Assembly (NCBI GenBank): GCA_031310005.1
Contig: CM062384.1
Coordinates: 3,438,362-3,502,361, forward strand
Origin: Dactylellina haptotyla
Taxonomy: Eukaryota; Ascomycota; Orbiliomycetes; Orbiliales; Orbiliaceae
Reading direction: 5' to 3'
Length of the DNA stretch: 64,000 bases
Shown here: piece by piece, positions 5,401 through 64,000 of the stretch
How the letters are laid out: each line of letters begins with the position of its first letter
How positions within the stretch are numbered: the first letter of the stretch is position 1
Notes under the pieces: generated by a model
The model's input: only the letters and a program-made list of their open reading frames with translations
What the model was told of the DNA's origin: nothing
Database searches by the model: none
Position numbers and translations under genes: made by a program

Positions 5401-5666
5401 ATTTTCGGACCAATCATTGATCGATAGCGGTGAAGGACGGAGCGTTTGATCACTCTTGGCATGGTTAAGATTGGCTGCTGCAACAGCCCTCGCTTGGCGA
5501 AGTAGCACCCTTCAGCTGAAATAACTCACAGCTGAAAAAGCGGCCCTATAAGAAAAGATGTTGTGACCCTGGAGTAGAGGAGTTAATATTTTGGTCCCTG
5601 CCTTTATCCTTCCAAAGATATCCAGAATCCTAGTGAATAAAAGTATACTAGCACGATTAGGACGAT
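2427..5666. other. Long intergenic region, no convincing gene
   Basis: This is about 3.2 kb between the divergently transcribed GH76 and lectin genes. Open frames at 2474-2686, 2776-3000, 3340-3628, 4114-4452 and 4644-4964 are short, overlap on opposite strands, and show no domain, signal peptide or intron-exon logic. The only structured element is the inverted repeat at 3287-3371. The last ~150 bases should hold the lectin promoter; CCCTATAAGAAAAG near 5545 is TATA-like. Confidence 0.5.
3287..3371. repeat. 14-bp perfect inverted repeat around a ~57-base spacer
   Basis: GAAGGCTGCTGCGC at 3287-3300 is the exact reverse complement of 3358-3371. After a short mismatch the arms continue with CTAAAC / GTTTAG, extending the pairing to about 20 bp per arm. 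The spacer is GC-richer than its surroundings and non-coding. It could be a hairpin, a solo terminal-repeat pair of a miniature DNA element, or a bidirectional regulatory site. No target duplication is obvious at the arms. Confidence 0.45.
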
Positions 5667-6512
5667 ATGGCGACAATCGACACCTCTAAAACATATGTTT
5701 TGACGAACTCTTTCACAGGTCCGTTGAAGGCCCTCGCCATTTCCTCCGGCTCAACATCACTTTCGATGGCAAACGTTGTTACAGGAGGTACCGACACTCA
5801 GGAATGGCTTGCAACATCCGCAGGTATTTCGGGCTATTACCGCCTCCACATCGCTTCTCTCGGTACATCTCAGTCCCTTGATGTAATAAATGATAATGGC
5901 GTTGATAGTATCAACGTCTACATGACTGCAACCGGTCAATATACTGGGCAGTTTTGGCGGTTCGATACCTGGAGCTCGGGTGGTGGTTACAGACTGAGTA
6001 ATAACTTTACTGGCCTGGACCTGCACCTCGATGTGTACTCGGATACTCTACAAGCCTTTCTCGCAACCGGGGATCATACTGGACAACATTGGACACTAGG
6101 GACACCAGCGGCCACCCTCGCTCCCTCAAGTACTTCTGTTGCCCCTTCAGCTTCGACCTCGGGCGCCGCGTCGGCCTCCACGACTCCGATATCGTCAGCA
6201 ACGGTGGAATCTTCGTCCTCTGGTTCTAATAAATCTTTGTCACCGGGCGCTATCGCAGGAATTGCTGTAGGAGGAATCGCTATTATTGCTATATTTGTCG
6301 GTGCTGCAATATTCTTCGGGTTGAGGAAAAGAAAAGGCGAACGAAGAGGTGGTAATCATATGGAACACGTCCAACATGACCCCAAACAGAATATGGCCGC
6401 TGTTGCTGGACAAAAGAAATGGACTTATGATAATACTGCCACATATACGGCGCATGTTAGCGAGTTGGAGGCTGTTAAATCGCAGCCACTATTAGCGGAA
6501 TTACCTTCGTGA
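5667..6512 (+). CDS. Ricin-B-like lectin domain with Ser/Thr stalk and single membrane helix
   Basis: An intronless 281-residue protein. Residues ~8-145 form a beta-trefoil-like lectin module with three QxW motifs (QEW, QFW, QHW), the hallmark of ricin-B folds that bind sugars. Residues ~148-190 are a Ser/Thr/Ala-rich, probably O-glycosylated stalk. A helix (SPGAIAGIAVGGIAIIAIFVG...) at ~193-218 is followed by basic KRKGERR, the layout of fungal single-pass wall sensors, leaving a ~65-residue cytosolic tail. There is no N-terminal signal peptide: the protein starts MATIDTSKTYV directly in the lectin fold. It would therefore have to be inserted by its only helix, or else faces the cytosol. ATG 5667 is the first in-frame start and the upstream sequence gives no leader exon I can see. 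The ligand is unknown. Confidence 0.75.
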   Translation: MATIDTSKTYVLTNSFTGPLKALAISSGSTSLSMANVVTGGTDTQEWLATSAGISGYYRLHIASLGTSQSLDVINDNGVDSINVYMTATGQYTGQFWRFDTWSSGGGYRLSNNFTGLDLHLDVYSDTLQAFLATGDHTGQHWTLGTPAATLAPSSTSVAPSASTSGAASASTTPISSATVESSSSGSNKSLSPGAIAGIAVGGIAIIAIFVGAAIFFGLRKRKGERRGGNHMEHVQHDPKQNMAAVAGQKKWTYDNTATYTAHVSELEAVKSQPLLAELPS

Positions 6513-8365: not shown

Positions 8366-11300
8366 ATGATGGAACCAACAGCTAGTACGAACAAATCGGA
8401 AAGTGGTATAGCTACTCCTGGGGTCCGGGACCCAATCGAGAAGCTAAATAATGGGGAGCGGAAACCCACATTCACGCTGCGTGCCACTGATGATGAAGGT
8501 AGGTTTGATCAATTGAACATGGGACTTGCGAATTACTGTATCATCGTACCTACAGCTCTACCGGCTCGCTTTATATTGCTGCTAATCTTTAACCGTCAGA
8601 AATGACTACATATCTAGACACCACAATGTATACCGAAATCTTTAATCGCCAGAACTTTATAAACCGCCTTGAAAACGAATCGTCGCAATTACGCCCTTAC
8701 GGTCTCCTAACGCAATCCTACAATGACGACCAAGATATACGGGTTGATATTGAGGTAGCTTTAGTTGAGAAGCCTGAATCCGAAGGTTTGGGTTTTCGAC
8801 TCGAATTGGAAACCATTAAAAACGAACTTGCGTTATCAAGACTCTATGAACTACTCAACGCACCGGGTACACCTAAAACCATTTTCTTGCTGATCGAAGA
8901 TGTATCGCATGCGACGACGACGGTCTTATGCGAATATCTTAAAATCGAACCATCGATCATACACAATCATTTAATCGGCATGAATGGGTTCTACGAAGAT
9001 GGAACACGCGCAAGACCACCTCGAGGTACTAGCCGTGCAGGACTAAGAAGAGCACTAACAAACTTACAAATCAATACCGTTCAAGACAACCAAAACCAGT
9101 GGGAAACAGAATGCTATAGCTTTGATATATTCAGACGAAGAGACTTCTTAGCTTCCGATGGTTCAGCATTCCGATTGGATTGGGGAGTTGTTTGTATTGG
9201 TAACCCCTCCCTTCTGACGGAAAGCCAGGAGGCTATGACATCATCAGATCGCAAAATTAAACGCGAAGATCCTTCGAAAATTAAAAGATCCGGAATATCA
9301 TTTTTTCAGCAGCCTAAAGAGTCCCCTGAGCGAATTGTTGGTATCCACAATCGAATTCACCGGCCTTATTACACTATCGCGATGGAGGAAAAGGATCGTT
9401 GTGTAGTATCTGCGGATCAAAGAATTACAAAAGTGGAGAAAAAGATCAACGGACATGATATATGTAAGCTAATCCCCACCGTTATCTATCAATAAGGCTC
9501 ACAAAAGCTCTATGGTAGTGATATATCTCTTCGATCCTCACAGGATGTTGTCGACTTCGGATGGATCCTCGTGTCTTCTTTTTGAAGGAGTGAACAAGAG
9601 GCCATGTCCAGCTGTTGCTTCGCGAGTAGACGAGGAAGCCAAACAGACCAAGAAAGCATATACAACTCGAGAGATGTTTATTGATCACCTCAGCCATTCG
9701 ATATTTTTAAATAAACCGGGTTGCCTCATAACAGGGGAGATTGACTTTTTTTGCGGTATCCTTCGGGAGTACTGTGATACGCTGACGATAATCGACAATA
9801 CATTAGATGGAATCGATCGCCTGATAGCGGATACAGAAGCCTTAAAGCAGAATGTGAAGTCTTGGGAGAAGCTCTTATCATCCTACCGTGTTATATTGTC
9901 TAGCATGGTGCATACAATCAAAGCCCAGCGGCAATATGTCCGTCATCTAGGTAGCGTTTTGGAAGCTGCCAAGTCGGAAGAGAAACCAGAAATCGAGAAG
10001 CACAACAAGGAGCTTCTATACGTTATCGATGAATTCATAGAGTTTAGGGCTCATATAATTGAAAGAACAGATAGAATATTCCAAACACTCATGTCGTCCA
10101 TGTCCATTCTCGAATCTCAGGAAGCAATAAACGAAGCTTCTTCCGTTGGGAAGCTGACCGAGCTCGCTTTTATATTTATTCCAATATCTTTCGCGGCAAC
10201 TTTTTACAGCATGCAAATAGAGGTAAGTGGAAAAGCAGAGAGCACGGAGAACATCACTGACAGCTATTGAAATAAGAATTTGTCCCCGACGATCGGAAAA
10301 TTTTTCCTTCTGGCGACAGTCTTACTATGTTGTTCCTTTGGAGCTCGGATATTCCTCCGTAGCAGACTAAAAGGCTACATCCAACAACGTATACAAACTC
10401 CACTTATCAAAACAAAAGTTGCTACGAAAGGCCAACGGATACCAACAGCGACATATGTATCTTTCTATCTAAAATATATCATAGATCGTCGTTTTTTGTT
10501 GCTCGGTCCGATCGCGTTTATGGCCATCGGGTTCCCCCTGATCCTGAGTCTTGGTACAACCATCGGCTTCAAAGTTCTCGGTTGCATTTCAGTATTTTTG
10601 GTGGGTTGGTTGATCGGTCTGTTCGAAAACCATGAAGAGCGAAAAAATCCATTCGACATTAGAGAGAGTTCTCTGTTATTTGGGGCTACCATAATTTACA
10701 ATTTCATCCTTGTCATCGGGATTGTCGCCTTCGAGCTAAATCTGGAAAGCCCTGTCGCAATTGCTATCTGTTGCGGTATTCTCGGTTGTTTTGTCGCCCT
10801 CTTCTGCGCGTTGAAACCAAAAGACGCACCGACAAACACTTTCACCATGCTTTTCCAACTTATAGCATGGGGCTGCTTCTCTACGGTATTTGCAGTTATG
10901 ATCTGGCTACCGTGGCGAAAGGCAGTTGAAGCAGAAGATTGGAAAAAAGCCTTGGCGACAATTGCTTCAATCCTTGGTGGTCTAGTTTTAGTTTTTCTGA
11001 TGTGCGAGATTCAGAATATTCGTGAGGCGGTAGTTGGGAATGGGTTTCCAAGTATTCTAAAGTACCTTTATCTAACAATTGTAGGAGTGCTTATTATTAT
11101 TGGTACCCCTCTAACTTTCTTATGGTTTTACCCCTCAATCCAGGCGGCGGCAGTACCGAGATGGATTCAGATAGCAGTCACCTCTGCGATTTTTTTGGGA
11201 GGAACTCTAGTAGCATTCTTATGCATACGGTACCTTGACGATAGAGCTAAAAGAGAAAGGAAACATATCTATAAGCTGATTTCGCTAATTTGGGTGTTGG

Positions 11301-11518
11301 TGTGCTCGTCAAGTTTCCCCCTGGCCCTCTTTCTAGGTGGGATCCAGAGGTTTAAAGACCTTTCTGCGGCTGTCAAGGCTGCGGTTACCATATCCTGGAT
11401 TTTCGCCGCGTTCCTGGGAAGGCGAGTAACTTATCTAGTTTTAATGAAAATTTCGCGCTTCGTGATTCAAAAGATGAATCAAGGTGGATTAGCACAGCGC
11501 GAAGGCCAAAATGTATAA
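8366..11518 (+). CDS. CorA-like metal-ion transporter family protein with extended polytopic C-terminus
   Basis: I join four exons: 8366-8498, 8600-9463, 9519-10222 and 10277-11518. Every junction is in phase with GT..AG borders, giving 980 residues. Residues 1 to ~540 are soluble. The ~180 residues before the first membrane helix are long and helical (NTLDGIDRLIADTEALK..., VRHLGSVLEAAKSEE...), like the cytoplasmic stalk of CorA channels. The CorA signature helix follows (ELAFIFIPISFAATFYSMQI, ~545-566), with YSMQ in place of bacterial YGMN, as in many fungal CorA-like proteins, and then a second helix at ~572-593. The protein does not stop there: about ten further hydrophobic segments follow to residue ~965. 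Ordinary CorA has only two helices. The role in Mg2+ or other divalent transport is inferred from family only. ATG 8369 is an alternative start one codon downstream. Confidence 0.75.
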
Positions 11519-14626: not shown

Positions 14627-17600
14627 TCAATTATCTGTCTCGTCTTTCCACCTAATTGATAATGCGATGGAATAGGTAGTGCTAGGATGATCGGGACCTA
14701 AAACTTGAGTCCGTAGTCGCGTACATTCAATCATCAGTTTGAGAGCTTCAGCATTTCGACCTTGCTGTCTATGCGTCCATGCCAGGTTGGCCATACTGCT
14801 TAGCGTTCTTGGGTGCTCTGCCCCAAGTATTTTCGAACTTATCTTTACCACTTGCATGTACTGATCTTCGGCCTTCTCCCATTGACTTTGACTCCAAAAC
14901 GTCCATGCTAGGTTATTCATGCAGGTCAAAGTGTCTGGGTGCTCTACCCCAAGGACCTTCTTCCTTGTCTCTATTACTTGCACTTGTAGATCTTCAGCCT
15001 CCTTCAATCGGTGTAGTTTTGCGTACGTTGATGCTAGGTTGGACATGCTGATTAGAGTGTCTTGATGCTCCGCCCCAAGCACTCTCTTTCCCATCTCCAT
15101 CACTTGCACCTCCAGCTCTACGGCCTCCTTGAATCGGCCTTGCTTTCCGTACGTCGATGCTAGGTTGGCCATACTGGTCAGGGTCTCTGGATGGTCTCTC
15201 CCAAGCACCCTAGAACTCGTCTCCATCACTTGTATTTCCAACTCTTCCGCTTTTGTCCATTGACCCCTTAGGTGGAACGCTAGGGCCACCATGCCCATGC
15301 TGCGCAGCGTGTCCTGGTGCTCTTGACCAAGTGTTTTCTTCCTTGCTTTCATTGACTTTATCGACATCTTCTCCGTGTCAGCCGCGTTTCCTCTCGTCCA
15401 TGCGTACCATGCTGCTTTATATAGTAGTAAAGCCCACTCTCTCAATAAGACTTCTCCATCCGGCTGCTGCGCCACCGCGGACTTCGCGTGTGGAAAAAGT
15501 ATTTGACACTTTTCCCAGTTTTCGAAATTTCCTTCTGGAAATTCCTTGCAGAGATTTTTGATATATTGTTGTTTCCACCTTTCAAGCTTGCCGTGAGCTT
15601 CCAGCCACTTCCGCATAGCTAATTGTACAAGCCTATGCATCTCAAATGTTGCTTTATCCACATTTATAAAGATAAAGGAGTAGTTTCTTAGGGTTAGCAC
15701 GTTCTCTTCGAACTCATCGCTGTCATCTGATTCCGATCCACTAGAGCTATTATAATCATCATCGTTGTCGCTGTCGCTGTCGCCATTCTCGCCGTCGTTA
15801 TTATCATTAGATCCCTCTCGGCGTCCACAGCTGCTTTTCGTTTCGGTTTGGTTTCGAAGAACAAACTCGGGAATACCTTGTCTGTCAAAAAAGCACATGA
15901 GCGAGAGAAGATTAGCGGCCGACGGCCTTATTTGTAGAATGTGATCGAACGATATTTGCCAAGTCGTGAGAATGGAATTTTGGGCTTCCCAGTCCCTACG
16001 AAGGTGTCCGCCGATATGATTTAAAAGGGTCACCTTTCCTTTTTCGCCTTTTTGGAACCTTTCAATGTATTGCCGTACTGAAAACCGTGGCGCTCTCTGG
16101 GAGATATATGCTGCCGCTTGAACGGTGGCAAGTGGCATAAATTCAAGTAATCTGGCGAGCTCGGTAAGATCTTTGTCGTCACTCCACTCTCCTAGCTTCT
16201 TCTTGAAAAGCGCTAGCGCATGTACTTCGCCCATCGGATCAACCGCGATTATATCTCTCTCTTCAACTAGTTTCAATGCCTCACCTCTATTTCTCGTCGT
16301 TATGAGAACTGGGCCTTGGGGAAGATACGTTCGGAGCGGCTGTGAATTCGCACAACTCTTTTCTCCTTCCCAGCCAGTGCTTTGAGCCTCGAGAAGGAAA
16401 CGAGCATCATCAACATTATCTAAGATAAATAAGCATTTCCCCTGCCTTTCATCGTTGGCCCAGTCGTATACAAGCTTGAATATATTGGCTTTAGGATTGT
16501 TTCGACCTGGAATCTTGACATGATCTGCAATTTCTCGGTAACTCTGCTCGAATCGTGCAGCGTTGCTCGCGTGGACCCAGAAAGCCCTTGTGCCTTTAAT
16601 TCGGTAGGAGCACTCGATGGCCAGTTGCGATTTTCTGTCTCAGGGTTAGTAGTAGGAAGCTACATTATGCCATTTTTTACTTACCCCACACCGCCTAACC
16701 CAACGAGGGCTATCCTAGGTACTAGTGCTACACATTTCTCCTCAATCTGATCAAGCAGCGTTCCACAATCCACAAAATCCGGATCTCGTGCAAAAGGGAC
16801 GAACGGCGGAGGCGTTTCTATAGAAGCCGCTTAGTATATTTCAAGAAAATATCCAAAACAGGGAGAAAGTAATTATTTACCAGAAAGGGGCCTGTCCACA
16901 GCTCTCCATTCATCCAAGACAGCCTTTGTGCAAGCCGCTGCGGTTAGAGCCGCGTGTTCTTGCCACTCCTTACTTTTATGACTATCGGCATAGTCGCAAA
17001 CGCTCTTGATAACAATAGTAGGAATATATTCCCATGTGCCGGCACCTTCCATCTCAAAAGCAATAACTCCCTCGTCAGCTATGATACTATCGCGGTGCTT
17101 GCCACTCTTCAACACTTGACTACTGCACGCGATACGGCCAAAGTGAATAGAGGTCGTTCGAGGACGGGAGCGTTTCACCAAGAGCGTATCGTCGCAACCC
17201 AGCTCCCTACAAGAAGCCTTTAGTGCAAGTTCGCACGCCTCATCGCCCTTACCGCCTTCGCTCTGAGATAGGCTACAAGTGGCGCACAAATCTTGTTTCT
17301 GGTGCTTATGCCGATAGTTGGACGGGTAAAGTTTATCTTTCTCTAGCCCAGGGTAAGCCGAATCTCGGAACCCATCCTTCGCGCATATTTGAGAGAAAAA
17401 AATGCTGGTATTTTCTATAAGTTTCTGGCGAACAAGGTTGCCTGATATCTTCCCTATAAACGCTCGGATTTCCGGATTCGCTCTGCTGAGGGTATCTTCC
17501 ATCCCATTTTTCCTGATGAATTTATCTGGATACTGTCGGCCAAAATCGATTTGAACAACCGACGTACTGATAATAACATCGCCTAGGAAAACATCTATTC

Positions 17601-17949
17601 CATCAGCAGTCTTCGGTGCGCCTCCGCAGACACCCACAACAAGGCCAACTCTAATTCTTTCGAAACTACAGCGAATACTGGAAGCTACTGCTGCCGCGCT
17701 GATCATGCCCATACCAGACATGTAAGCCAGCACTACGTGCTGATTACCTAGCCTCCCCGTTGTATAGGCGTTCGAATCCCCTGCTGCCTTTCCGTACGAA
17801 AAGCCATCAGCCTCGTATTCCTCATCTAAAAAGGCTTCAACGGCATTACGCTCGATAGGTAATGCGCAGATTATGGCGATCTCAAAGTCATCGCGGCTCT
17901 TCGGGCGAAGGAGGGCCATCGGTACTAAGATATTAAACAAATCAAACAA
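14627..17949 (-). CDS. NLR-like receptor: PNP/UDP phosphorylase - NB-ARC - TPR
   Basis: A fungal NOD-like receptor. Three exons (17949-16881, 16817-16685, 16634-14627) join in phase and give 1069 residues. Residues ~20-350 are a nucleoside-phosphorylase-like domain (FEIAIICALPIERNAVEAF, YMSGMGMISAA, GLVVGVCGGAP, FEMEGAGTW) with the Cys-rich insert usual in fungal members. Exon 2 carries the P-loop GLGGVGKSQLAIE, split by intron 2 after GVG. Walker B follows (CLFILDNVDD), then VLITTRNRG and the MPLATVQAAAYI motif. A 40-residue Asp/Ser tract (~671-711) separates the winged-helix part from the C-terminus. About six kinesin-light-chain-type TPRs of 42 residues fill ~807-1069 and are very alike (VLGAEH, TLTSMANLASTY). 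In this family ligand sensing by the repeats drives NB-ARC oligomerisation and the N-terminal domain acts as effector, in heterokaryon incompatibility or defence. All catalytic-looking blocks are intact. MALLRPKSR, 11 codons downstream, is a possible alternative start. Confidence 0.9.
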
Positions 17950-18999
17950 AGAACGAAAATAAGAAGATCTGTGGCTCTATATCGATAGACGCTCTATTCC
18001 GTAGAGTTAGAGAGGGGCTGCTGAAACCATAATAAGCGGACAAACAACAACATGCAGCCCTCGGGCAGAGAAGACTTTATTTTCAAATTGCGTTGGATAG
18101 AAAGGGTGCCGCACTCTAACCACCTATTGTGCCAAGACAGAGGCCATCAGGCTGAGGATCCTGTAACGTAGAGGAAAACGCAACGGAGTTCAGCCATGAA
18201 GGCTTCAACAATATATTAATATTAATACAGGCTGAATGTTGGATTTCCCTCATATCTCCAGTTCGGATGGTTATCTTCGCAAGGGGAAGAAATTGATAGT
18301 AGCGGCTCATCCACCAGTTGGATGGATATATATCCTTAAATTTTTTTAATGTGTCGAAACCAATTTCTAAGTCTTCATTGGTTTTAAAATATTTTAAACT
18401 GAGTGTCTTGTCCTGTAATATTCGACGAAGCCGATGTTTTTAAGACACCAATTCCATCAACCCATTTTTTACAGCATCTTTCGTACGAAAGATCCAAAAA
18501 TTGAATATTTCAAAAAGTCCCTGCGCGATTTAGGATTTATAGCGGAGTCGGCTGATGATAACAACTCGAAATATTTGATGTGTCTGTCGCTTATATATAT
18601 ATATCTGAACCTCAGTCCTAATGGCGATTACCCAGCTTTTCAGCCACACGATTCATATCTTGGCTTCTATGTTCTAGATCCTTTCACGGCGCCATAGGAA
18701 TCGTTTTGTTCTTTGCTCCTATATTCACTAATAATTTTGCAGTCTTAGTAAAATACGCCAGAAATCGAGACGTGGATTATCTAAGGGAGCTCCCTGACCT
18801 TAGAATCGTACGCGGGGCCACAAGACTCTGGCTTTTCAGGTCGTAAATAAATAGTATCGATCCTGTTACCAGCTTCTCATTTAAAATGGAATAAGTATCT
18901 AATTCTGTGAAAACGAATCAATGGAACATTATATTAATGTCTCTGCGATAAAGCTGACATACAAATACGTGTTGAGGCTCAACTACAGGCAAGGCTGAC
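17950..18999. other. Intergenic region 5' of the NLR gene
   Basis: The first few hundred bases are the presumed NLR promoter. An open frame at 18434-18697 (87 codons, +) has no recognisable domain or leader and ends in AT-repeat-coded residues, so I do not call it a gene. Confidence 0.45.
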
Positions 19000-23440: not shown

Positions 23441-25246
23441 TTATCTTCCTGCATCCGTGATATGCGCATTAATGAATGCAATTTGCTCCTTTCGAAAGTC
23501 ATCTGTTTCGATATGGACTCCACCTGTCTTTTCAATGTCGAATACTATTTGTTGTTTCTTGCTGTCATATTGAGGCCATTTTAGCTCATTCTTAACCGCA
23601 CCAATATTGGGATCTGAATGAACGAAAAAATTTATCCATTTCCTGCTCATATCATCGGCGAGCTTCGAATATTGCGCTTTGTATGGACCAATCATCGTAT
23701 TTTTCGGAGTATATCCGTTTTGGAGAATGCCAACACCTTCTTTGTTATTAAAGACGAAGGAGACATCAAGGAAATGTTGAGCACCTAGATATGATGCTTG
23801 ACCATTACCCACAGCTTTGAAGCGGAAGCTCCAGACGGGAACCTTTTGAGCAGCATAAGTCTCGGTAGTATATCTTCTGTTAGCTATGAATCTGAAATCC
23901 GAGAACATGGCGTTGAATCGACCGTAAAGCTTGCCATAAAAGGCTGGAGGGCCGTTCTCGCCCGTCATGACCGCGGCATCGGGTAGAGAAATCGAATCTT
24001 TATTATATAGTTCTACTAGACGGTCTGTATTCTCCTTTTGCATGACTGACTCGTTCTCTATAAATCCGCCAATTGGTTAGTGGTTGGTTATAACTCTGGT
24101 TAAGGAAATGTGTAGCCTACGAATCCAAGATTTCATATCGTCGACTGTGTTTACTCCTTGGAAACCGGCGATCATGGACATTTCCTCACTGCACGCCCCG
24201 ACTATTGCTGGCACTTTTACATACCTGCCAGTTGTCAGCGCTTTGCTGCCAACCTCTTGGAGGAAGTCGCCATCAATAACTGGGTTCCAGTGTTTGAAAT
24301 GATCTGGCCTGCCCTTCTTTGGGTCAATATCTACAGTATCGACAGCGTTAAGAAGGACACTAATATCGACTTCTCTAAGACACTGGAGGCTATCAGATGC
24401 CTTCTCGCACTTCGTTTCCTTAACAAGAGCTTCATAAGATTCTTGATGCGTCGTAGGTAGAGGGTTGGCAACATAAAAAACAGGGGCGCCGCTTTGCATG
24501 ATGACATTTCTGAAAAGTTTATCATTCCGTCCTCCAAAAGCAATCTGGTGAATACCAACTGACATAGCGCCAGCGGATTCTCCAAAAAGACTGATCTTAT
24601 TTGGATCGCCACCGAATGCCTGGATGTTATCTTTAACCCAATGAAGCGCTAATCTTTGATCCTTTAAGCCCGTATTAAGATCCTTAGAGTCAGCGACTTG
24701 CTTGCTACTAAGGAATCCCCATGCCGATAATCGATAGTTAATAGATACGCCAACTATAGGGGTGCCCATTTTGACGGACTGGTCAACTATAAAACTGAGA
24801 TTGAATGCAGGGTCCATACCACTGCCGGTATGGAAGCCACCACCATGAATCCAAATAGCTACTGGGAGCTTCGATGAGTCAGATGTACCACTTGGGCGGA
24901 CGACATTTAGTTTTAAGCAGTCCTCAGAGTACACAATGTCCGTTTTATTAGTATTATCGAACCCGTAGCAGTACGGCCCGAGGCCTTTAGCATCAATATC
25001 TCCAAGAGTGGTGTTGATGAACTGTGGAGGACGGAATCTCAAGTTACCGACTGGAGGTTGGGCAAATGGAATGCCCAAGAAATAGTCTTGCTTGAAGTTG
25101 GCATCGGTGATGCCATGGACCGTTCCGTTAGATATAGTTATAGTCGGCTCACTGGCGCTTCGAGAACTGATTGCAACAGCTTGGGCTAAACTGGAGATAT
25201 AAGGGAGCACCAGAGGCACGAGAACGAGAGAGGAAACAATCTTCAT
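23441..25246 (-). CDS. Secreted type-B carboxylesterase/lipase (copy 1)
   Basis: An alpha/beta-hydrolase of the type-B carboxylesterase (Candida rugosa lipase-like) family. Exons 25246-24121 and 24057-23441 join in phase over a 63-base intron, giving 580 residues. Residues 1-23 form a signal peptide (MKIVSSLVLVPLVLPYISSL...). The family entrance motif GIPFAQPPVGNLRFRPP is at ~58-74, EDCLKLNVVRP at ~108, and the oxyanion-hole HGGGF at 134-138. The nucleophile elbow is FGESAG with Ser224, the acid is in GACSEEM (Glu354/355), and the base is His470 in GAQHFLDVSF. All parts of the catalytic triad are present and several N-glycosylation sequons (NLS, NKT, NTT) fit secretion. It is closely similar to the gene at 27280-29196, which is transcribed in the opposite direction; the pair looks like a local duplication followed by inversion. 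The substrate cannot be told from sequence. Confidence 0.92.
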
Positions 25247-27279
25247 CGTCTATGAAAAGAGGCAGAAAGTCTTGCTTATATTTATAGCTTAGCAATTGGG
25301 TGAGCGTCTAAGATCAATGATTGATAGAGTTATAAAGATCTTCTGGGTTACACCCAAAAGAAGATGATAGAGAGCGATGAGGATGAGAGGGGCGTTTTTT
25401 TTCTTTCTATTATATTTTTTGACTTTATTTGATGATCGATTGACTAATAGATATTTTTGATTCTGATTGACGGGTTGATGTGGCGATTTGCAGGTTTCTT
25501 ATATATAAATGATTTCATTAGTTTATTTCGATGCGTCGATAGTTAAATTTCTTTTTAGATTCGCATTGGGTATAGCTTGTGACAACCAACATAATTACAA
25601 TACAATTACCAATGAAGTGTCAGAATATGCGAAGACACAGGGAGAGACTTAGTCCCGTAAGCTAGAGCTCTCCTCAGAATGCTTTGTGTTGCGTCTAGCT
25701 TGCGAGACTGGTTGTGAAATGTGGTTTTGCCAAGTCGACACATGCGGCAATATTCACAAGAGGAACTCGATCGGAAGTGGAAACTTGAACTCCTTAAGGA
25801 AAGTGTCTCGGTTTATGGCTAAGAAACTCCTCCCTTTGAAACCGGAAGGAGATCCCGCCAGATAAGATACAGGGTATGGCTACAGGAACTTTGAAGTTCT
25901 TTCCGCCACTCCGCTAGGCCCAACTATCAAGAGAAATCTAACAATGGTTAAGAAGACAGAGCATTTTAATTGATGACGCCTTCCGGACCAGTCTTCTATT
26001 TTCTATAGTTTAATCTTCAAATCGGAAAATGCCACTTCAATCAAAATTATTACCCGTGATATTGTCACAGACTAAGTTATACATCTAAGGTTTACTTGTA
26101 TAATGAATTAGTAGAGAAAACTAAAAGTCCCTCTATGGAGAAATATTTCCTATTATCTCAATATTCAAATTGTTAGAAGTCGCTAGCATCTTTATTGAAT
26201 CTTACTAGAGAGTTCGAAACTAAATGTAAATAAACAGCAAATATAAGAATAGCGATTCCGGAAGCTATTATTTTGTGCTTTAGATTACTAGCCAGGTTAG
26301 ACATAATCTTTTCGGCTGAGATGGACCTGCCAGAAAATCTGATTTTGTGAAACCTGCCAGATAAAATTCCGGGATTCAGTCTGAACTAAACCAGAAATAT
26401 CATCAACCGATTGAAATTCCATTGAGCCCCTCAGAAATCTGCATTATTCATAACACTAGCTCCCAACAAAATCGGAAATTATTTTATAACAGGGGATGTA
26501 AGAACCCAAGTTCCGTCTCTCTCGTTTGAAAATCCCTCGAAACCTATGTTCAATCTATGCGGTCGCTATAAAGGTTGTGAGTATATATTCTAGAGCCTAA
26601 AACGGCTAATCTATTCTCAGGCTTACCGGTATCTTTGAGGCGCTCTCTTATGAAGTTATATAATGTATAACTGATAAAAAGCCTTAAGAACCAATCATAG
26701 TGTCGTACAATTAGTGGGGAATTGACAGGTCCGACGCTGTGAATTCAGAAATGATGTAAGAAGCGGTTTCTTTCTCATGGACCTCTTCTACGAGGTCCAT
26801 GCGATTGCCGCTTTGAAAGAAGCATGCCGACATGTCTCCGACTGTGATTAATTTATTGAATGTGTTTCAGAGGTTAAAGTCAAACTATGGAGTGCTCCTA
26901 TCCCCTTTATAGCATGATGGATCAAAGTTTTAAGCGATAGCTGGAGCTAACTGCTGGCTGGTTCTCTAATTGAGGTCTTGGATAATACAACTGAGGAATG
27001 AGCGCTTGTTGAATTTTAATCTGCGTTCTATTGATGGTACAACTCCAGCTTCTGTAATTTTGAATACGTCAATCTTCTGAATACAAGTCAACTCCCCACT
27101 TTAGAAGAAGTGGCTTTTAAAACCCCTTTTCCTAATCAAGGCAATATTTTGAGCTTGATTCTGTTTAAAGTCACTACAGACATTGTTATAAGATCTACTA
27201 CAGTTGTTATAAAATAACACTCATATGCCGCTTACTATCAAATAGCAACCATTTTGTTAGCTACGAAACACACCGAAAA
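25247..27279. promoter_or_regulatory. Shared upstream region of the two diverging carboxylesterase genes
   Basis: This 2-kb non-coding block lies between the two ATGs and must contain both promoters. It includes the hairpin at 26776-26801. CTTATATTTATAG about 30 bases upstream of the minus gene and TTATAAAATAAC about 70 bases upstream of the plus gene are TATA-like. No open frame above 60 codons is present. Confidence 0.5.
26776..26801. repeat. Perfect 10-bp hairpin (CATGGACCTC / GAGGTCCATG)
   Basis: The arms 26776-26785 and 26792-26801 are exact reverse complements around a 6-base loop. Outside them AAGCGG (26761-26766) pairs with CCGCTT (26808-26813), so the dyad is nested over ~53 bases. 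It lies ~480 bases upstream of the plus-strand esterase start. It may be a dimeric transcription-factor site or an RNA hairpin. Confidence 0.5.
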
Positions 27280-29196
27280 ATGAAATTCGCGGCCTCTACC
27301 TTAGTACTCAGCGGCTTTTTAGCTGTAACTTTTATCCAAGGGTCCCCTATAGATGACCTACGATCACCGAAAGCAATAATCAAGAATGGAACAGTGGCCG
27401 GCCTTCACGATACAACTTGGAATCAGGATTACTTTCTCGGTATTCCTTATGCTAGACCACCTATAGGACCCCTCAGATTTCGCCCTCCTCAGTATATAAA
27501 TAACAAGTTCGGTGCCATCGAAGCAAAAAAATATGGCGCATTTTGTAATAGGTATAACTCTAGCGAATAGGATGTTGCCGCTCAATCCCTTTTGTCATCC
27601 AATCCCTCCAAATTGATCTATTTTGAACTATTATGAGTAAGCTATGGGCTAATATTAATCAAATAAATTTCAGAGATTCGCCGAATGGCGTAATGCGCGA
27701 AGATGGTTATACTCGTTCCGAGGATTGCCTTACCTTGAATATCGTCCGCCCCGCTAGCGTTCCTCAAAACAATAATCGGAAGCTTCCGGTCGCTGTATGG
27801 ATTCACGGCGGCGGCTTTATTCTAGGTGGCAGTGGAGAGAGCATCTATAATTTAACCTTCATAGTAGATAAATCAGTAAAAATGGGTACTCCAATCCTTG
27901 GAGTAAGTATGAATTACCGGCTAGGTGGTTTTGGATTTCTTGCTGGCCGTGAACTAGCGGATACTCAGAATCTTAACAACGGCCTGAAAGATCAACGCCT
28001 AGCTCTACATTGGATTAAGGAAAATATCGGTGCATTTGGGGGTGACCCTAATAAAATTACTATATATGGTGAGTCTGCAGGTGGTGGATCTGTTGGTATC
28101 CATCAGCTGGCGTTCAATGGTAGGGATGATCATCTATTTAGTGGCGTGATTGCTCAGAGCGGAGGTCACATATACTACCAGAATATCAGAAAGCCGCTTG
28201 AACATCAGGATGACTTCAATAGGGTGCTAGACCGAACTAATTGTCAGAATGCTAAGGATGGTCTTGAATGTTTGAGATCAGTCGATGAGAATACCTTGTT
28301 AAAAGCAGTTCGAGGCCTTTTTTACCACCCCGTCATTGATGGTGAATTTATCGCTGATTACGGTAGTAAATTGGTGAAGGCTGGTAAGTATGTCAAGGTT
28401 CCGTTGATCATTGGGACAACACGAGACGAAGGTACACGATTTGCTAGTGGCTTTGGGGGTTTCAACAAATCTGAGGATATTGTGAGATATCTGAGTTAGT
28501 ATTCACCATTCTTAAAAAAAACTTTGAGATAAGAAATAAAAGTTTTGGTATACTTACAACTGAGAAATGGTGCTAGAAAAAAAATCTGCAATGAGCGATG
28601 TTAGTTTCCAAAGACTCCTCGAGCTCTATCCTCCACAGATATCTATACCTCCAATTGAAGCCCTCAATGGCGAAATCGCAAATGCTGCGGACGGAGTGCA
28701 ATTCCACCGAGCGGCGGCCATTATAGGTGACTTTATGATGATCGCTGGCAAGCGATACGTTGCTGAGAGCTTTTCGGAACATAATTCGCCCGTTTGGTCT
28801 TATAATTTCAAAACTAAAGGCTATGATTACCCTATTTCATGGGGTGCTAGCCACTTAGCTGAGATACCATTTATGTTTCACAACACAGATGTTGCTGCTG
28901 AACTCCCACCTTTTTTTTTCAAGGAGCAGCCTATGGGAGGACCACTTAGAGCCGATTTCATCCAACTCGCGAACTTGATGACCGAAACTTGGATAAGATT
29001 TATCGTAAACGGTGATCCTAACAAAGGTGCACCCAATAACGAACTGAATTGGCCTCCTTATCAAGATACGAAAGGGTCCAGAAATGAATTCGTTTTCGAT
29101 ATCCGAGCCAATGGAGGCTGCAAGATTGAGCAAGACAATTATCGAGAAGAGGGAATCCGATTTATAATTCAGCAATTCATTGAAGATAGCAGGTAG
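27280..29196 (+). CDS. Secreted type-B carboxylesterase/lipase (copy 2)
   Basis: Paralogue of the minus-strand gene at 23441-25246. Exons 27280-27551, 27674-28494 and 28565-29196 join in phase (introns of 122 and 70 bases), giving 574 residues. Signal peptide MKFAASTLVLSGFLAVTFIQG is followed by NGTVAGLHDTTWNQDYFLG and GIPYARPPIGPLRFRPP. HGGGF at 135-139 is the oxyanion hole and GESAG at 223-227 the nucleophile elbow (Ser225). The acid is the Glu of TTRDEG, the canonical motif that copy 1 has changed to ACSEEM. The base is the His of GASHLAEIPFMF. Copy 2 has one intron that copy 1 lacks (after GAFCNR), while the downstream intron occupies the equivalent position in both copies. The second donor, GTTAGT, is the only nearby one whose phase fits the third exon. 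It is active-looking, with all catalytic positions kept. Confidence 0.88.
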
Positions 29197-31188: not shown

Positions 31189-33243
31189 CTAGCAACTTGG
31201 CTTGATAACCCACCCGTTGTCCGGATCTATCTTGGGATCCAAGCAAACCATAAACACCTCTTCTTTCTGAGTTTTAGCATTGAAAGTGGTAAACTTCCTT
31301 CTCTGCCCGGACATGGCCTTGATAAATTCCTTCTGCCCACCCCTGCGTCGGCCGATAAACTCGCCATCCCCGTGTCTGAGCACATAAGTGTCGACGTACT
31401 TGAACTGTCCCGTCTTCTTATTTGTCATACCGTGTTTCTCGTAACTAAGACTGAGGACTTCATTACCCGGATAGGTCTTTCTAAAGGCGGCCTTGGGCAA
31501 ATTGCGCTTCTTGGTATCATCGTAGAGAATCTTGTCTGCGGATAGTTTCTGCCGGCAGAACTCACCGAGGGTCCACATTTTCGTGCCCCATTCCGGGGTG
31601 TACGTCTTCTCCGTGAGGTACTCCTTAATGATACCCTGGCCTTCCACGCCGACGAACTTGAGCTCGAAGCCAGCTTTGGCGCCACCCGATACGCCCGCTG
31701 TCAAACCCTTGGCTGTAACCGTGGTACCCTCTTGATCAGTCTTACCACTGATACCAGAGATAGCATCACGCCTGGTGAGCTTCTCGCGTTCGTTCTTGCA
31801 ATAGGCGCCTTGGTCTGCAGGTTTGGCTCCCGCCTCCGCGTGATATTCCAGTTTTGGAAGCCAGAGTTCCACACCACTCTGAACACCGGATCCCAATAGC
31901 TCGATGCTGACGCCAAAGGTGGTGATTGCTGCCGCTGTGCCCTTGACTTCGACTTTTGCTTCGCGAAGACCTGCGTCCCAATTGATCTCTGGCTTTTTGA
32001 GATCAAACTTACTCTTCGTCTTTGGATGCATCAAGTCCAGCGTAATGTCGCTATCCGGCAGCGAGGCGTCTAGTCTAGCACCCACGGTGACGGATCCGGC
32101 AGCCTCGATGTTATTGTAAGCTTCAACACTGATCTTAGGGCCAAAGTTGACGACACCCCAAATGGAAATGGGTCCAATGGGAAAACTTGCGAGCTCCTTT
32201 CTGAACTCATGTTGCTTCCCTAGTTGAACGGAAGCCTCCATGTCAACGACGGCCTTCATGTCGTATGTCTTGATGGATACAGATGCCGCGTGGATCTCTC
32301 CAAAGCTTGCCTTGAAAGTTGCAGAGAGCTCGACAGAGCCAGTCGTGTAGCAATTAACGCACTCGGCGCTCAGAGCACCACTGGCGAGTGACTTTTCCGA
32401 GCCCAATTTCTTATTAAAGAGAGAGATTGGAGTGTTCGCTGTGCCATAGGCCACGCTTACGGGCCACTTAGCATCTAGTGCTAACCTCGATTTCGAAGTT
32501 TTACTATTCGTCCCGACTTCGGCTGAAAGTCCAACTGATCCAAGAGTAATGTCGACTTTACCTACTTGCTTCCACTCTATTTCTTCCGCGGTGAGAGTGG
32601 CTGTCACGCTGTCTACCCTCACCGCTGAAATCTTGTACGGGAGCTTCCTCTGAGCGCCTGGGTTCTCGGGATCTTCGGATCTGACGACAAGAATAAAGTA
32701 ATCAGCCGTGTCTGGCGTACCAACCCACTTCCATGCTTCCATCGCGGCCTTTACCAAAACCGGACTATGAAATTCCAGCTTGATGGATCCAGGCTCGGTG
32801 AAGAGGGAGTGTGATTTAATCATTTCCTTAAAGTAGTCAAGTCCGAGGATCGGATGTTTCTCGTCCGGTTCGGCTGCTAGTTTCGCTTCTAGATGGATCG
32901 GTTTGCCTAGGGGGTCGAGTCAAGTCAGTATAACTTCATTTTCTACCATCGATAATATCGCACCTATATGTTCAACCCCTTTGTATTTTCCGGCCCAAGT
33001 CTTTTTAGGTTTGAGTCTCAAAGGATCGTCAGCACGTTTCCGAAGGTGCCCTGGACGTCCGATGTCGTCGCCCTCCTCGGACCCGGGTATCAGAACTCTA
33101 TATCCATTGGGTACATTCCATTTGACGCGCCCTGCATTGATGGGGCCACCGAGAGGTTTTTGGTCAGACACTATTGGAGATGCCAGAACCTGTACGCCTA
33201 AGAGACTGTAGGAAAGGAGAAATGGTATGAGTGAGTTAACCAT
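31189..33243 (-). pseudogene. Secreted protein of unknown function, one in-frame TGA (possible readthrough)
   Basis: One reading frame of 684 codons is continuous from ATG 33243 to the stop at 31189, except for a single TGA at codon 108 (32922-32920). A signal peptide (MVNSLIPFLLSYSLLGVQVLA) and a dibasic site (HLRKRADD, ~70) open the protein. After the TGA the frame goes straight on (LDPLGKPIHLEAKLAAEPDE) into a long beta-rich domain. Its marker is CVNCYTTGSVELSATF (CxxCY.xG), which I associate with a family of secreted fungal proteins known only as domains of unknown function. The C-terminus is basic (FIGRRRGGQKEFIKAMSGQRRKF) and ends CLDPKIDPDNGWVIKPSC. No intron of normal size removes the TGA: the only GT...AG around it is 28 bases and breaks the frame. 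So this is a fresh nonsense allele, a sequencing error or stop readthrough. If translation restarts, ATG 32823 gives 544 residues without a leader. Confidence 0.7.
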
Positions 33244-34921
33244 ATTGCTAACTTTAGTATATTATTATTATGTATGCTTGTCGCGATTAGGAAGATTTAT
33301 CCCGATGTTAAAAAGATTTTTGAGACCGATTAAAGATTATTTGTGAATGGCCAAAAAAAAGGCTTGGATATATGAATTAAGCGAAAGTAAATCTAGACCT
33401 GCTAGATAGGAATGGGAGTTTGGTATGGGAGCGGATGAAGATTCCTAGAAGTCTAAACGAGGGAGTAATCCCTAGATTTATAGAAAATGCTCCCCACTAG
33501 AGTAGAGATTCTAGCTTAATCCATCTGCTGTTTGCTTATCCCAAGGGCATGACTCGTTTGAAAAGGTAAGAATACTTAATTCTTAGTATCAATATGCTTT
33601 GAAATAATCTAGCTTTAAGAGGTAATTGGGTTAACCTTCTTTTAGCTTTCGAAACGATTGTATAGATTTCGACTATATAGCCCGGAGTCAGCCGGAGTAT
33701 TGTGTTTGAGAAGGTAAGCTAACAGTTCATCGATGGCTAGCCCCCGTTTGAGCCAAACGATCTGGACTAATGACGAAATTTCGGAAACACTACGCATACG
33801 TTCGAGTTTCGTCCTCCTGTCTCATGGAGTCACCTTTGCGTACTCGTTTCCAGCTAAGACCTATGTGTCGAGGTACACAGCGTTGTTTTTGAAACGGGTA
33901 AGTGGCACAATTTAAGTGTTGGTTTTTCTTTCAGCTGTTGTTCAGTAACTAGCAGATTTCCCCACGCCCGAGTTCGCCACCATCATTGACAACCACTGAA
34001 ACGTGCAGATATAGTTCATTACTTATAAGTAGTCTTGAAACTCTATCAAACTTTATTGTTGCTTTTCGATGAGTTAGAGTTAGTACCCGGGACCCCACCG
34101 CAGCTCTAAATCTTTCTTCTTATTGGGTGCACATGGTCTTCATAAGAGTTAAGCATTCGAAAGTATACCTACAACACAGCTCGCTTGTGGTAACGAATGA
34201 ATATGTAGAAACGGTGACAGTACGCTCTGGGGAATGGCGACGTTTTAAAGCGGGGTAACAAGGCTGAAAATGTGCATCAAAATGATTTCAACTCAAGGTC
34301 CTTGCCCGACCAAAATCTCGGGAAGGAATCAAGTTCTTCTTAACTTTAATTTTACCAAAGTTATCGAATTTCGCGGATATTTTACTTTCTATATGCGACC
34401 CGAGGAACTAAACTGTGTATTGGATCTGCGCTCTGCGCTTTAAGTGTAGAATTCGTTACTGCACGAGAGTTTCTTGACGAAAATCATGATGAAGGGCCAA
34501 CAGAAGTATTTCCAAAGGATAACAACGTTTATACTATGGGCAGAATCAAAAAACATAACAGTATTATTATAGTATTACCTAATATAGAGTATAATACATT
34601 CTCCATAATAATAGTCGTTAAAAAATATGCTACATAGTTTCTCCAATATTATAATTAAATTTATGGTTGGGATTGGTGGTGGTTTACTTGATATAAATTA
34701 TATTATTTACTTAAATAATATTAGAATTGGTACTTTTAAAATGGAAAGAGCAGTGTATTATAATATGGCTTTAGTAAAGTGATACAAGATTAGAATCCCC
34801 TGCCCTACCTACTAGTGTATGTGATCCACTCTAATAATACCAAGTAAGAATTCTTGATAGGATCTGTAGTACTAGTTAGCTCGCATTATATATCAATAAG
34901 ATCCTACTTATTATGGTTTAC
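33244..34921. other. Intergenic region, no supported gene
   Basis: The frame at 33733-33915 (60 codons) shows no family. From about 34550 onward the base composition drops to AT-rich stretches with short ATAATATT-type repeats, the first sign of the AT-rich subtelomere. Nothing else was seen. Confidence 0.45.
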
Positions 34922-36925
34922 CTACCCCCCATACGCACTCATTATTCTCCTTGTCAGTGACATATCGTATTCGCCTCTGTATATATCTTTAACCAATGCC
35001 ATATAGGCTGGCTCCCAAAGGATACGGGCAAGTCGTGCGATAAGTAGAGTGTCTGATTCAACTGAACCCCTTCCTTTTATCGATTCCTCCAGCAACTGAG
35101 CATCGCGTAAAGGTTTATTTGACACGCCACTAAGGACGTAGAGCATTGCTCTACCCTGTACCCAAATTATCAGTAAATTTTCAAACTCTTAATATATCTT
35201 ATATAAGCCTTCTTCCTTATATCTTATTTTACTTACCGCCCATCCAGGAATCTTCTCTGCGATAGTTTCTGCAAGATCCTGACCGTATAACTTCTTGTAT
35301 AAGGTTAACATTTCCTTTAAATACCCAGTGCTCTTAGTTATTATTCGCTCTCCTATTGCTAAAATATCCCTTTTTTCTTTCAAAAGAGCATCAAATAGAT
35401 ATTTAGTATCATCTTGAACCATATCGAGGTAAACTAGATCCCATTCCTCCATACCACGAGCTTCGAGTTGAAGAAGAATTAAATCCTTAAATGATTCGTC
35501 GTTTGCTATCTTATTCGCCGCCAGCTCTGCTATAATCGCCTTCCGAAGATTGTTATCATTTTTAGAGTTACGATACGATTTGATTATCTCAATAATATCG
35601 TTATTTCCACGGCCCATGAGAGCTTCTATGAGTAGCGTGTAGCGAAGGTCCTAAACGATAGTTAGCTACTCACCTCGGATTGTTCTAATCTAACACCTTA
35701 GGGTCTTACAATTGGATGATTAGATGGGATTGACCAATATGCTTCCGATTCATAAGGACCACAGGCTACGACATATGCGCCGAGCTGGACTTTGCCGCTC
35801 AGCTGAGCCCTGAGATGCTTAGCAAGGTTAACGTTACCCTGTACATAAAATTAGACCTTTTCGTGTAGGTTGGAAAGAATAAAGTTAGAATCAGAAACTT
35901 ACTAACGGATGGATTCTTTTATACTCTGACCGAAGCAATAATATTTGATATCCTGAAAGTAATGGAAGGATGTTGACAATTTTGACGACGTCCGCTACCC
36001 TACCCTTTAAGGATTTATACAAAATTCGTGCGTGGTCGCTAGGATCATAACCTGGCTGGTATAGATTTCCTCGACTGTAGCTGGAAAAACTGGCATAGGA
36101 AGATTGAGCGTTGTGCACAGCACTCGAAGGGCTGCCGCCGTTCGCATCTAGGTCTGCGCCCTTCTCTACCAGTAGCTTCACTACCGACTCGTGTCCGTTC
36201 TCTACTGCTAATAATAGCGGCGTTCGTCTGTAGCTACTATCCTGAACCTCCATATTTGCGCCATTTCTCAATAATAGCTTCACCACCTCCTGGTGTCCAT
36301 TTTCTGCGGCGAAAGATAAGGGTGTCTGGCCGTGCTCGCCGCCCTTAGCATTGAGGTCTGCGCCTTTCTCTGCGAGTAGCTTTACTACTGTCTCGTATCC
36401 TTTCTCCGCTGCCCATAATAGCGGTGTTCGTCTGTATCTGTAGTCTTTAGCCTCTAGAAATGCACCGCTGTCTACTAGGAGCTTCACCGTCGCCTGATGA
36501 CCGCTTATCGTAGCCCATAAGAGTGGCGTACGACTATACTGGCTATCCTCAGCCTCCAAATCGGCACCACTGTCTATCAGCAGTTTCGCTACCGAATCAT
36601 ATCCGTACTCTGCAGCCCACGACAGAGGCGTTCTGTTAAACTCGCTATCCTCTACCTCCAAGTCAGATCCATTATCTATCAGTAGCTTCACTACCCTATT
36701 ATATCCATTTTGAGCGGCCAACAGTAGTGGTGTATGACCGTACTGAGTCTCCTTAGACTCTAGGTCTGCACCACTCTCTAGCAGCAGTCGTACTGTAGCC
36801 TCGTGTCCGTTCTCTGCAGCTAATGACAGTGGTGTCCGACTCGAGCTATCTTTAGCCTCCAACTCCGCACCTTTATATACGAGCAGCCTTACAACTGGCT
36901 CATTGTAACAAAGCTCAAACAACAT
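34922..36925 (-). CDS. Ankyrin-repeat / annexin fusion protein
   Basis: Four exons (36925-35903, 35838-35710, 35650-35237, 35155-34922), all joined in phase 0 with GTAAG donors, give 599 residues. Residues 1 to ~270 are about eight ankyrin repeats with the TPLxxAAxxGH...VVKLLLxxGADLE consensus. The first is partial. A Ser/Tyr-rich linker (~275-300) follows. From DPSDHARILYKSLKG to the end are four annexin repeats: repeat 1 has YKRIHPL and LAKHLRAQLSGK, repeat 2 DLRYTLLIEALMGRGNNDIIEII, repeat 3 ARGMEEWD...LYGQDLAETIAEKIPG, and repeat 4 DAQLLEESIKGRG...LLIARLARILWEPAYM..IYRGEYDMSL. Annexins bind acidic membranes through Ca2+ held by GxGT loops. Here the loops read KGRVAD, GRGNND and GRGSVE, so Ca2+ binding is probably weak or changed. 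Cytosolic (no leader). The start sits ~90 bases from AT-rich sequence, so an upstream exon may be lost. A membrane-docking scaffold is an inference. Confidence 0.85.
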
Positions 36926-39305
36926 GACGAACTATACTAAGAAATAACATAAGCAGGGGGAGCTATGAGGATGGTAGTAGGAAACATTAACGCCCTTCTT
37001 TAAATCAATAAAAAAATATAAGAATAATATAAAAATGGGAATATTTAAAACAAAGAATTATTTCCGAATTAAAAAGAATAATTATTTTAATTGTTTAAAA
37101 TTATTTATTATTTCTTTTGTTTAGAATTATTTATTATTTTTTTGTTTAAAATTATTATTATCTCCTTTATCCAGAATTATTTATTATTTTCTTTATTTAA
37201 AATTATTTATTATTTTTTTATCCAAAATCACTTATTATTTGTTTTTATTTATAAGTATTTATACCTATACTTTTAGCATCATATAACTTAAGAAATCAAA
37301 CAATAATTTAAGTATTAATTTAAATATATATATACGTAGAATCTAATAAACCAAATAATATCTTATCTATCACCTTATTACCTTATACTTATTATATTAA
37401 TTTTTACACTTTATTATTTTGTAATCTTAATAACCTAATATTACAAGATATCCACTAAAATAAAAGATATATTAGGAAAATCTTTTAAAACAATTAAATT
37501 AGTTGCTATTTTAAAGTTTACTTTTAAATAAATAAAGGTATTATTTATTATTTTTAATTAAATAAAAATATTTAATATATTTTTAATAATATTTATTAAT
37601 AAAATTAAATTCTTGGATCTAGATATTTTTAACAAAATTAAATTTTATTAACTTATAAATTTTTTTAATATTTTTAATAATAAATTTAAAAAAAAATTAA
37701 GTTTAATATTTATTAAAAATAAATATTATATATGGTTAGCCTTTTATAAAATAATTTACAAAAATTTGTATTTAACAAATATAATAAAAATAATAACTAT
37801 TATAGTTAGGATATATACAAAGATTTTAGAACTTAGCTTGAAAAAGCTTTTAAAAATTTAAATTTAACCAAAATAATTAAAAAAAAATTATAAATACTAA
37901 AATAAATAAATTAACCTTTTTCCTTATATTATATTAAATTTAAAAATTTATAAAAAATTTAATTATAATAATACGATATAAATAGCATATTTACACAATA
38001 AACTTTATATAGAAATAAAAGAATTTTTAATTATTTATAATAATTTATTAAATAATATTAATGACTTTGTAATCTTTTATTAAAAATTAAACAATAATTA
38101 AAAATACTAGAAGTTAAAAAGAAAACTAGAAACTTTCAAATATATTAATTAAAAAATGAATTAAAGATAAAATAATAAAAGAATATTAAAATCCTAATAA
38201 ATATAATTTAAATAATATTATTTAAAAGAATTAATACTATAACCTAGAACTAATAAATTAGTTTATAAAAAAATCTAAAAATAATTTAATAAAAAAAAAA
38301 AAAATCAAAGAAAATTTCTAAATTTTTATATGTATTATAGGGATAAAGATTATAAAAAAGAAAAATATTACACTAAATAATGTTTTAAAAAAATTTATCT
38401 AATAAAATTACTATTTTATAATCTCCTTTAAGTAATACAAAACTAAAAAAATTATTTATAAACTTAATTTTAGATTTATTAGATATTAAAATCTATAAAA
38501 AGTCTTTTATAAAAATGTTTAATAATATAGATAATAAGTAGAATAAATATTTAATGAATAAATTAAAATAGTTATTATTAATAATAATAAAAGATTAAAA
38601 AAAAAAAAAGATTAATTATAAAGAATAATATATAAAAAGTTGAAAAAAACCTATCACTTCACAAATTTTAAATATTCTAAAGAAATTAACAAATTTTTTT
38701 TATATTTTAAAATATATATTTTTATTTAGATTTTAAAAAAATTAAAATTTTATTTGAACTATATATAAAAATTTTAATTATTTTATACTTTTACTTTTAA
38801 AATTTTATCCTTATTATTATTTACTTAAACAACAAAAACACCAAAATATATATAAATTAGCAATTTATAATTGAAAATGATTTTCTATTATATATTAAAA
38901 TAATTCTTAAAATTATAGAATATTTTAATAATAAAAAAAAAATAATAAAAAAAATAATATAATTTATAATAAAAATCGAAAATTATAAAAAAACAATTAA
39001 AGCCAATATTATTAATATTATAAAAATTTTTAATTTAGGAAAATTATAATATAAAAAATATAATATTATTATTAATTAGAAAAAGTTAAAAATTAAACTT
39101 AATTATATATTAAAAATAATTATAATTAGTATAAAATTTTTTAAAAAAACTATAAAACAAAAACCTATTTATGTAATTTATAAAATTAATAAAAACTAGA
39201 AATAGATAGATCTAAATAAAAAAATTATTAAAAAAATTATATAAATACTATTAAAATTTAAAAATTTAAAAAAAATATTCTTAAAATAAAAAAATAATAT
39301 CTTTC
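36926..39305. other. AT-rich, RIP-like degraded sequence
   Basis: Within ~100 bases of the ankyrin-annexin start the sequence drops to roughly 10-15% GC and stays so. There are no open frames above ~60 codons, and stop codons of the TAA/TAG type fill every frame. A ~26-bp imperfect minisatellite is at 37093-37250. The rest is probably decayed transposon, but I could not identify its family. Confidence 0.5.
37093..37250. repeat. ~26-bp imperfect minisatellite (about six units)
   Basis: The units read (T/C)(T/C)(A)AAATTATTTATTATTT plus a short T-rich spacer. Six successive copies differ mainly by C/T and G/A changes, as expected if RIP acted on a tandem repeat. Confidence 0.6.
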
Positions 39306-63900: not shown

Positions 63901-64000
63901 TTAGGTTTTTTTTTTAGGTTAGGGTTAGGGTTTAGGTTAGGGTTAGGGTTAGGGTTAGGGTTAGGTTAGGTTAGGTTAGGGTTAGGTTAGGTTAGGGTTA
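63901..64000 (+). repeat. Telomere repeat (TTAGGG with TTAGG and T-run variants)
   Basis: About 100 bases of TTAGGG and shorter TTAGG units, the G-rich strand running off the right edge, mark the chromosome end. The first units are irregular (TTAGG followed by ten T). Confidence 0.97.

Follow-up and report, generated by a model that had tools for sequence, protein, structure and literature searches.

Can an ankyrin array and an annexin core be read as one fungal protein, and what could such an annexin core still do at a membrane once its calcium sites are altered? Both questions are raised by a gene of Dactylellina haptotyla located on the minus strand of the window, by which we mean the whole 64,000-nucleotide stretch of DNA that was analyzed. 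The ankyrin–annexin fusion is real. The two families that it joins are ordinary, but their order is unusual, and there is what appears from the alignments to be a credible loss of calcium sites. The coordinates of all features are collected in Table 1.

One reading frame across the junction

The first-pass annotation had described four open exons, the last of them running 35155–34922, that are joined through three phase-0 introns into a frame of 599 residues. This description is confirmed on the minus strand, where all four exons are open and each of the three introns has GT..AG ends and lies in phase 0. A tblastn search of the protein against the 64-kb window (E up to 1) returned its own exons only. 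By eye, an upstream ORF of 16 codons (MFPTTILIAPPAYVIS, 36926–37000, minus strand) is also visible, which stops just before the main start codon.

Table 1. Features of the ankyrin–annexin gene, with positions given in the window.
Feature	Position	Strand	Basis or content
Exon 1, residues 1–341	35903–36925	-	ATG at 36925, open to the GTAAGT donor at 35902; ankyrin array, linker and first 51 annexin-core residues
Ankyrin array, residues 1–264	36134–36925	-	Short first repeat and seven 34-residue units; Pfam, exon 1 model, Foldseek
Linker, residues 265–290	36056–36133	-	Ser/Tyr-rich, without acidic residue (charge count on residues 266–292)
Annexin core, residues 291–615, four repeats, exons 1–5	34812–36055	-	phmmer against PDB; PF00191
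Intron 1, 64 nt, phase 0, within annexin repeat 1	35839–35902	-	GTAAGT..TACAG
Exon 2, residues 342–384	35710–35838	-	Open frame
Intron 2, 59 nt, phase 0, within annexin repeat 2	35651–35709	-	GTAAGA..TTTAG
Exon 3, residues 385–522, bulk of annexin repeats 2 and 3	35237–35650	-	Open frame
Intron 3, 81 nt, phase 0	35156–35236	-	GTAAGT..TACAG
Exon 4 (corrected end), final part of repeat 3 and bulk of repeat 4	34926–35155	-	Splice-site reading
Intron 4 (predicted), 62 nt, phase 2, absent from the first-pass model	34864–34925	-	GTAGGT..CTACAG
Exon 5 (predicted), 52 nt including stop, last helix of annexin repeat 4, tail SYQEFLLGIIRVDHIH	34812–34863	-	Pfam repeat-4 score, annexin VI alignment

Both families are found in one protein, as the reading of ankyrin repeats followed by a four-repeat annexin core had it: in the 599-residue protein, Ank_2 (E=2.5e-64) and PF00191, the Pfam annexin family (E=6.7e-10), each exceed their curated cut-offs, and an ankyrin array stands where annexins usually have their tail. 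The core begins at residue 291 and its Pfam annexin match at residue 298, both within exon 1. An adjacent ankyrin gene and annexin gene could have been merged into one by an artefact of the gene model, whose splicing is predicted from sequence, but we find this hardly credible, as exon 1 is a single frame of 341 codons in which neither a stop nor an intron separates the ankyrin array from the first 51 residues of the core.

The position of the introns also bears on how the fusion arose. All four introns fall within the annexin-coding part and none at the point where ankyrin and annexin meet, which speaks against exon shuffling, a route that we rejected for the junction on these grounds. The exon-wise assembly proposed earlier is thus not borne out, since the junction sits inside exon 1, which continues without a break from the ankyrin array into annexin repeat 1. 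From PGYDPSDHARILYKSLKG onward, the protein can be aligned with annexin VI starting at its PGFDP, and because of this starting point the joint probably lies inside an old annexin tail or immediately ahead of it.

The annexin core and its calcium sites

The first-pass protein ends at SAYGG, short of the last helix of annexin repeat 4. At this point the DNA reads GGGGG/GTAGGT (exon/intron), followed 62 nt on by a candidate acceptor, CTACAG, with a branch-like CTAAC motif recognized by eye about 12 nt before it. Splicing out 34925–34864 would add a fifth exon (34863–34812) that encodes the tail SYQEFLLGIIRVDHIH and brings the protein to 615 residues, and all five exons are then open across 615 codons with usable splice sites. 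The tail aligns with annexin VI 'GEYKKTLLKL' and extends the match from core residue 304 to core residue 318, improving the annexin VI E-value from 1.5e-19 to 4e-23 for the whole sequence and from 5.8e-11 to 7.3e-13 for the best single alignment. The shorter match is itself far beyond chance. With SYQEFLLGIIRVDHIH, the Pfam score of repeat 4 gains 8.8 bits, rising from 14.1 to 22.9 (below the family cut-off of 25), and the whole-core score increases from 44.4 to 52.7 bits. Twelve candidate acceptors were considered for intron 4, and eight of the resulting tails were scored; as a control, the seven alternative tails obtained 13.4–15.7 bits for repeat 4. The remaining four acceptors yield either the unextended protein (introns of 46 and 117 nt) or one or two extra residues, left unscored (introns of 114 and 126 nt). 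An acceptor 8 nt earlier (intron 34925–34872) was rejected, as it yields a tail of 13.4 bits and is located very near the branch-like motif.

The gene end is probably located beyond 34922, with a predicted intron 4 and exon 5 completing repeat 4. Of the earlier 599-residue protein, the four exons stand, and the end at 34922 probably gives way to the 615-residue form; likewise, the claim that all exon ends fall in phase 0 holds for introns 1–3 and fails for the predicted intron 4, which is in phase 2. The 599-residue form may be an alternative transcript form that arises by retention of the fourth intron. We infer that the four introns are spliced and the gene is expressed. The predicted exon 5 matters for any test of core function, because the shorter protein lacks the last core helix.

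In a phmmer search against the PDB, the completed core aligned with annexin VI (1m9i) over core residues 1–318 of 325, so that the four repeats of about 70 residues that characterize annexins cover the whole core. Scored on the whole core with SYQEFLLGIIRVDHIH, PF00191 exceeds its cut-off, and four stretches are found at the loose limit of E up to 10, a count that is not comparable with the one taken at E up to 1 on the 599-residue protein. The repeats are less evident when scored singly: repeat 2 has no Pfam annexin match and repeat 3 reaches 15.1 bits (E=0.025), and the middle of the core is therefore far diverged. It is the end-to-end alignment with annexin VI that gives the four-repeat reading, which is an assignment by sequence similarity. 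In the structure models, made from contiguous exons, the exon-4 fragment alone has a pLDDT of 51, and helices are predicted for the annexin residues of exon 1 with almost all pLDDT values under 50.

The core resembles annexin VI (1m9i) and annexin A2 (7dto) in sequence, sharing 78 identical residues with each over 298 and 289 aligned positions, respectively. It differs from both in having changed calcium-site residues, insertions in repeats 1, 2, and 4, and an ankyrin tail. With a pI of 8.48, the core is basic compared to the annexin VI lobe (5.15) and to its own ankyrin part (4.85), but annexin A2 is equally basic (8.97), and the charge of the core therefore proves nothing.

The type-II calcium site of annexins follows the consensus GXGT....D/E (PMC4656261), which combines a loop with an acidic cap residue. 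Aligned to annexin VI, no repeat of the core has a complete site of loop and cap (0/4). Repeat 1 reads GRVA in the loop and its cap changes from E to Q; repeat 2 has lost the loop (PIDL) and kept an acidic cap (D to E); repeat 3 reads KEKR with the cap changed from E to K; repeat 4 has a near-normal loop (GRGS) without the cap (D to A). These readings are made at what we take to be the exact calcium-ligand positions within the annexin VI alignment. The earlier statement that GxGT is altered in all repeats is accurate as a count of complete sites and goes too far for the remnants, as repeat 4 keeps GRGS and repeat 2 its acidic cap. A fungal precedent is Aspergillus fumigatus ANXC3, described in the available text of PMC4656261 as a protein with few if any type-II sites and possibly no conventional interaction with calcium or membranes. 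As ANXC3 also does without type-II sites, their loss does not exclude annexin membership by homology.

The ankyrin array, its relatives, and the surrounding DNA

Ankyrin repeats are tandem helix pairs of about 33 residues with the motif TPL..A..G, and such repeats are found here by Pfam, by unit spacing, in the structure model, and by Foldseek. The array consists of seven TPL-bearing units at a 34-residue spacing, preceded by a short first unit. In a single-sequence AlphaFold2 model of exon 1, eight helix pairs extend through residue 254, with ten-residue mean pLDDT values of 80–98 from residue 21 to residue 260, and a Foldseek search with this model matched ankyrin and DARPin structures. In the linker, a helix is drawn at residues 266–282 with pLDDT under 50. 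The first helix pair is short (residues 4–17), and the mean pLDDT over the first ten residues is 61. Because the array opens with this short repeat near the edge of an AT-rich island, we considered a missing upstream exon; judging from the model, it is possible that an N-terminal part of the array has been lost or is encoded upstream.

The units had been described as very alike and the array as recently expanded. Across the 21 unit pairs, identity is just 51–73% in DNA, 41–65% in protein, and 26–56% at third positions; at this level of DNA identity a recent expansion is therefore not supported. Older local duplication is visible among the units, since units 5 and 7 share 81% identity across 90 nt. 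Where residues are identical, codon agreement is only slightly above the null: 0.44 over 369 comparisons, against a resampled mean of 0.375, with 2 of 200 resamples as high.

Several known protein groups share part of this architecture. A four-repeat annexin core is likewise present in filamentous fungi, in ANXC1–ANXC3 of A. fumigatus and ANXC7 of Thermomyces lanuginosus, and in the latter the N-terminal part is long too, with repeat 1 starting from residue 157 of 466 (PMC6142879, in the text available). The protein described here differs from these fungal annexins in that its N-terminal part is an ankyrin array; the word 'ankyrin' is absent from the main text of PMC4656261 and PMC6142879. The bacterial multidomain annexins of the F family likewise join an annexin region to unrelated domains, among them metalloprotease, lipase, and toxin domains (PMC3894181, PMC3482391). 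Ankyrin goes unmentioned in the main text of PMC3894181, and no joining of annexin to ankyrin appears in the available portion of PMC3482391. No published report of an ankyrin–annexin fusion was recognized among the literature matches listed, and the architecture may well be on record in a database.

Fungal NLR proteins also include members in which an ankyrin array is the probable recognition part. The protein differs from them on two counts: no NACHT or NB-ARC domain was matched by Pfam at E up to 1 in the 599-residue protein, and its repeats are not near-identical.

The search for relatives was extended to three sequence collections. Viral contigs, searched with the annexin core, exon 1, and an annexin VI/A2 alignment, and prokaryotic genome contigs, searched with two alignments, returned pattern matches and no confirmed relative; tblastn against plasmids returned six records, all chance matches (E about 6). 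The contig scans start from short peptides, and the prokaryotic scan missed bacterial annexins that are on record (PMC3894181). Because the collections are viral, prokaryotic, and plasmid, and known bacterial annexins were missed, these results say little about other fungi.

An AT-rich island extends from about 37,000 to the end of the window at 64000, with a GC content of 7–24% per kb. Its left edge is sharp and lies upstream of the ankyrin–annexin gene, about 75 bp from the start codon. On the other side of the gene, several further coding regions were recorded. An NLR-type gene (14627–17976, minus strand) comprises a PNP_UDP_1 exon, an NB-ARC-like P-loop, a long acidic Ser/Asp run, and then a TPR array; by eye, the P-loop segment 'RIALVGLGGVG' is parted from 'KSQLAIECSYR' by a probable intron. 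The presence of such a gene and the short introns both fit a filamentous fungus. Two carboxylesterase genes in opposite orientation (23441–25249, minus; 27169–29196, plus) lie about 2 kb apart and are probably paralogues, based on similarity seen by eye. A DUF7029 and DUF7223 protein is encoded at 31189–32919 (minus) in an open frame of 576 codons. At 5661–6512 (plus), a Ricin-B-lectin-like domain detected by Pfam is followed, by eye, by a Ser/Thr-rich stretch and one hydrophobic segment resembling a membrane span. At 9473–11518 (plus), a match to CorA-like Mg2+ transporters precedes a separate long hydrophobic ORF that has no Pfam match; the two possibly form one spliced membrane protein.

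What the fused protein may do

With all four type-II calcium sites incomplete, the core is probably not a classical calcium-switched membrane clamp. Judged by the site residues, calcium-independent membrane binding is a reasonable expectation, and the explanation we favor, to which we give about an even chance, is that of a 615-residue, probably intracellular adaptor. The eight-repeat ankyrin solenoid would bind a protein partner, and the core would use basic residues to dock on acidic phospholipids, independently of calcium, or else serve as a folded scaffold. The annexin core would thereby place at a membrane the partner that the solenoid has selected.

The main rival to the adaptor is a degenerate annexin, in which membrane binding may be lost altogether and the core is kept as a structural or protein-binding module, or in which the gene is turning into a pseudogene beside the AT-rich island. 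We consider this possible, if rather unlikely. The lack of any complete calcium site fits it, as does the divergence of repeat 2, which has no Pfam annexin match alone, and the gene starts about 75 bp from the point where the GC content falls. Exon 1 also has the highest RIP product index among 19 ORFs (1.32, with a substrate index of 0.96). This RIP signal is weak, however: of 2000 codon-resampled draws, 1% attain the product index and 14% the substrate index, exon 3 is normal (0.87/1.17), and another ORF (27169–27570) is raised as well (1.17/0.93). That five exons have remained open with usable splice sites also argues against decay.

A core that still responds to calcium, through weakened or unconventional sites by which repeats 4 and 2 would bind the ion at high concentration, appears improbable; the loop glycines of repeat 4 and the acidic cap residue of repeat 2 speak for it, but no repeat has both loop and cap. 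A more far-reaching idea, which we hold to be quite improbable, is that in a fungal lineage a calcium-blind annexin has become the part by which an ankyrin receptor docks on the membrane. Membrane attachment would then be driven or released by the binding of a foreign or altered protein to the ankyrin array and not by a calcium pulse, perhaps in nonself recognition. Among the literature matches listed, three fungal NLR papers (PMC12258605, PMC4986451, PMC9815663) show no occurrence of the word 'annexin'.

Returning to the adaptor that we favor, the fusion bears on how the functions of annexins can be divided. The tail of an annexin is considered to determine its partners. With a full ankyrin array as the tail, the choice of partner would become a separate and replaceable part of the protein, and with all calcium sites incomplete, annexin membrane docking would be separated from calcium. 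The ankyrin–annexin fusion would thus offer a natural test of what an annexin core does without calcium.
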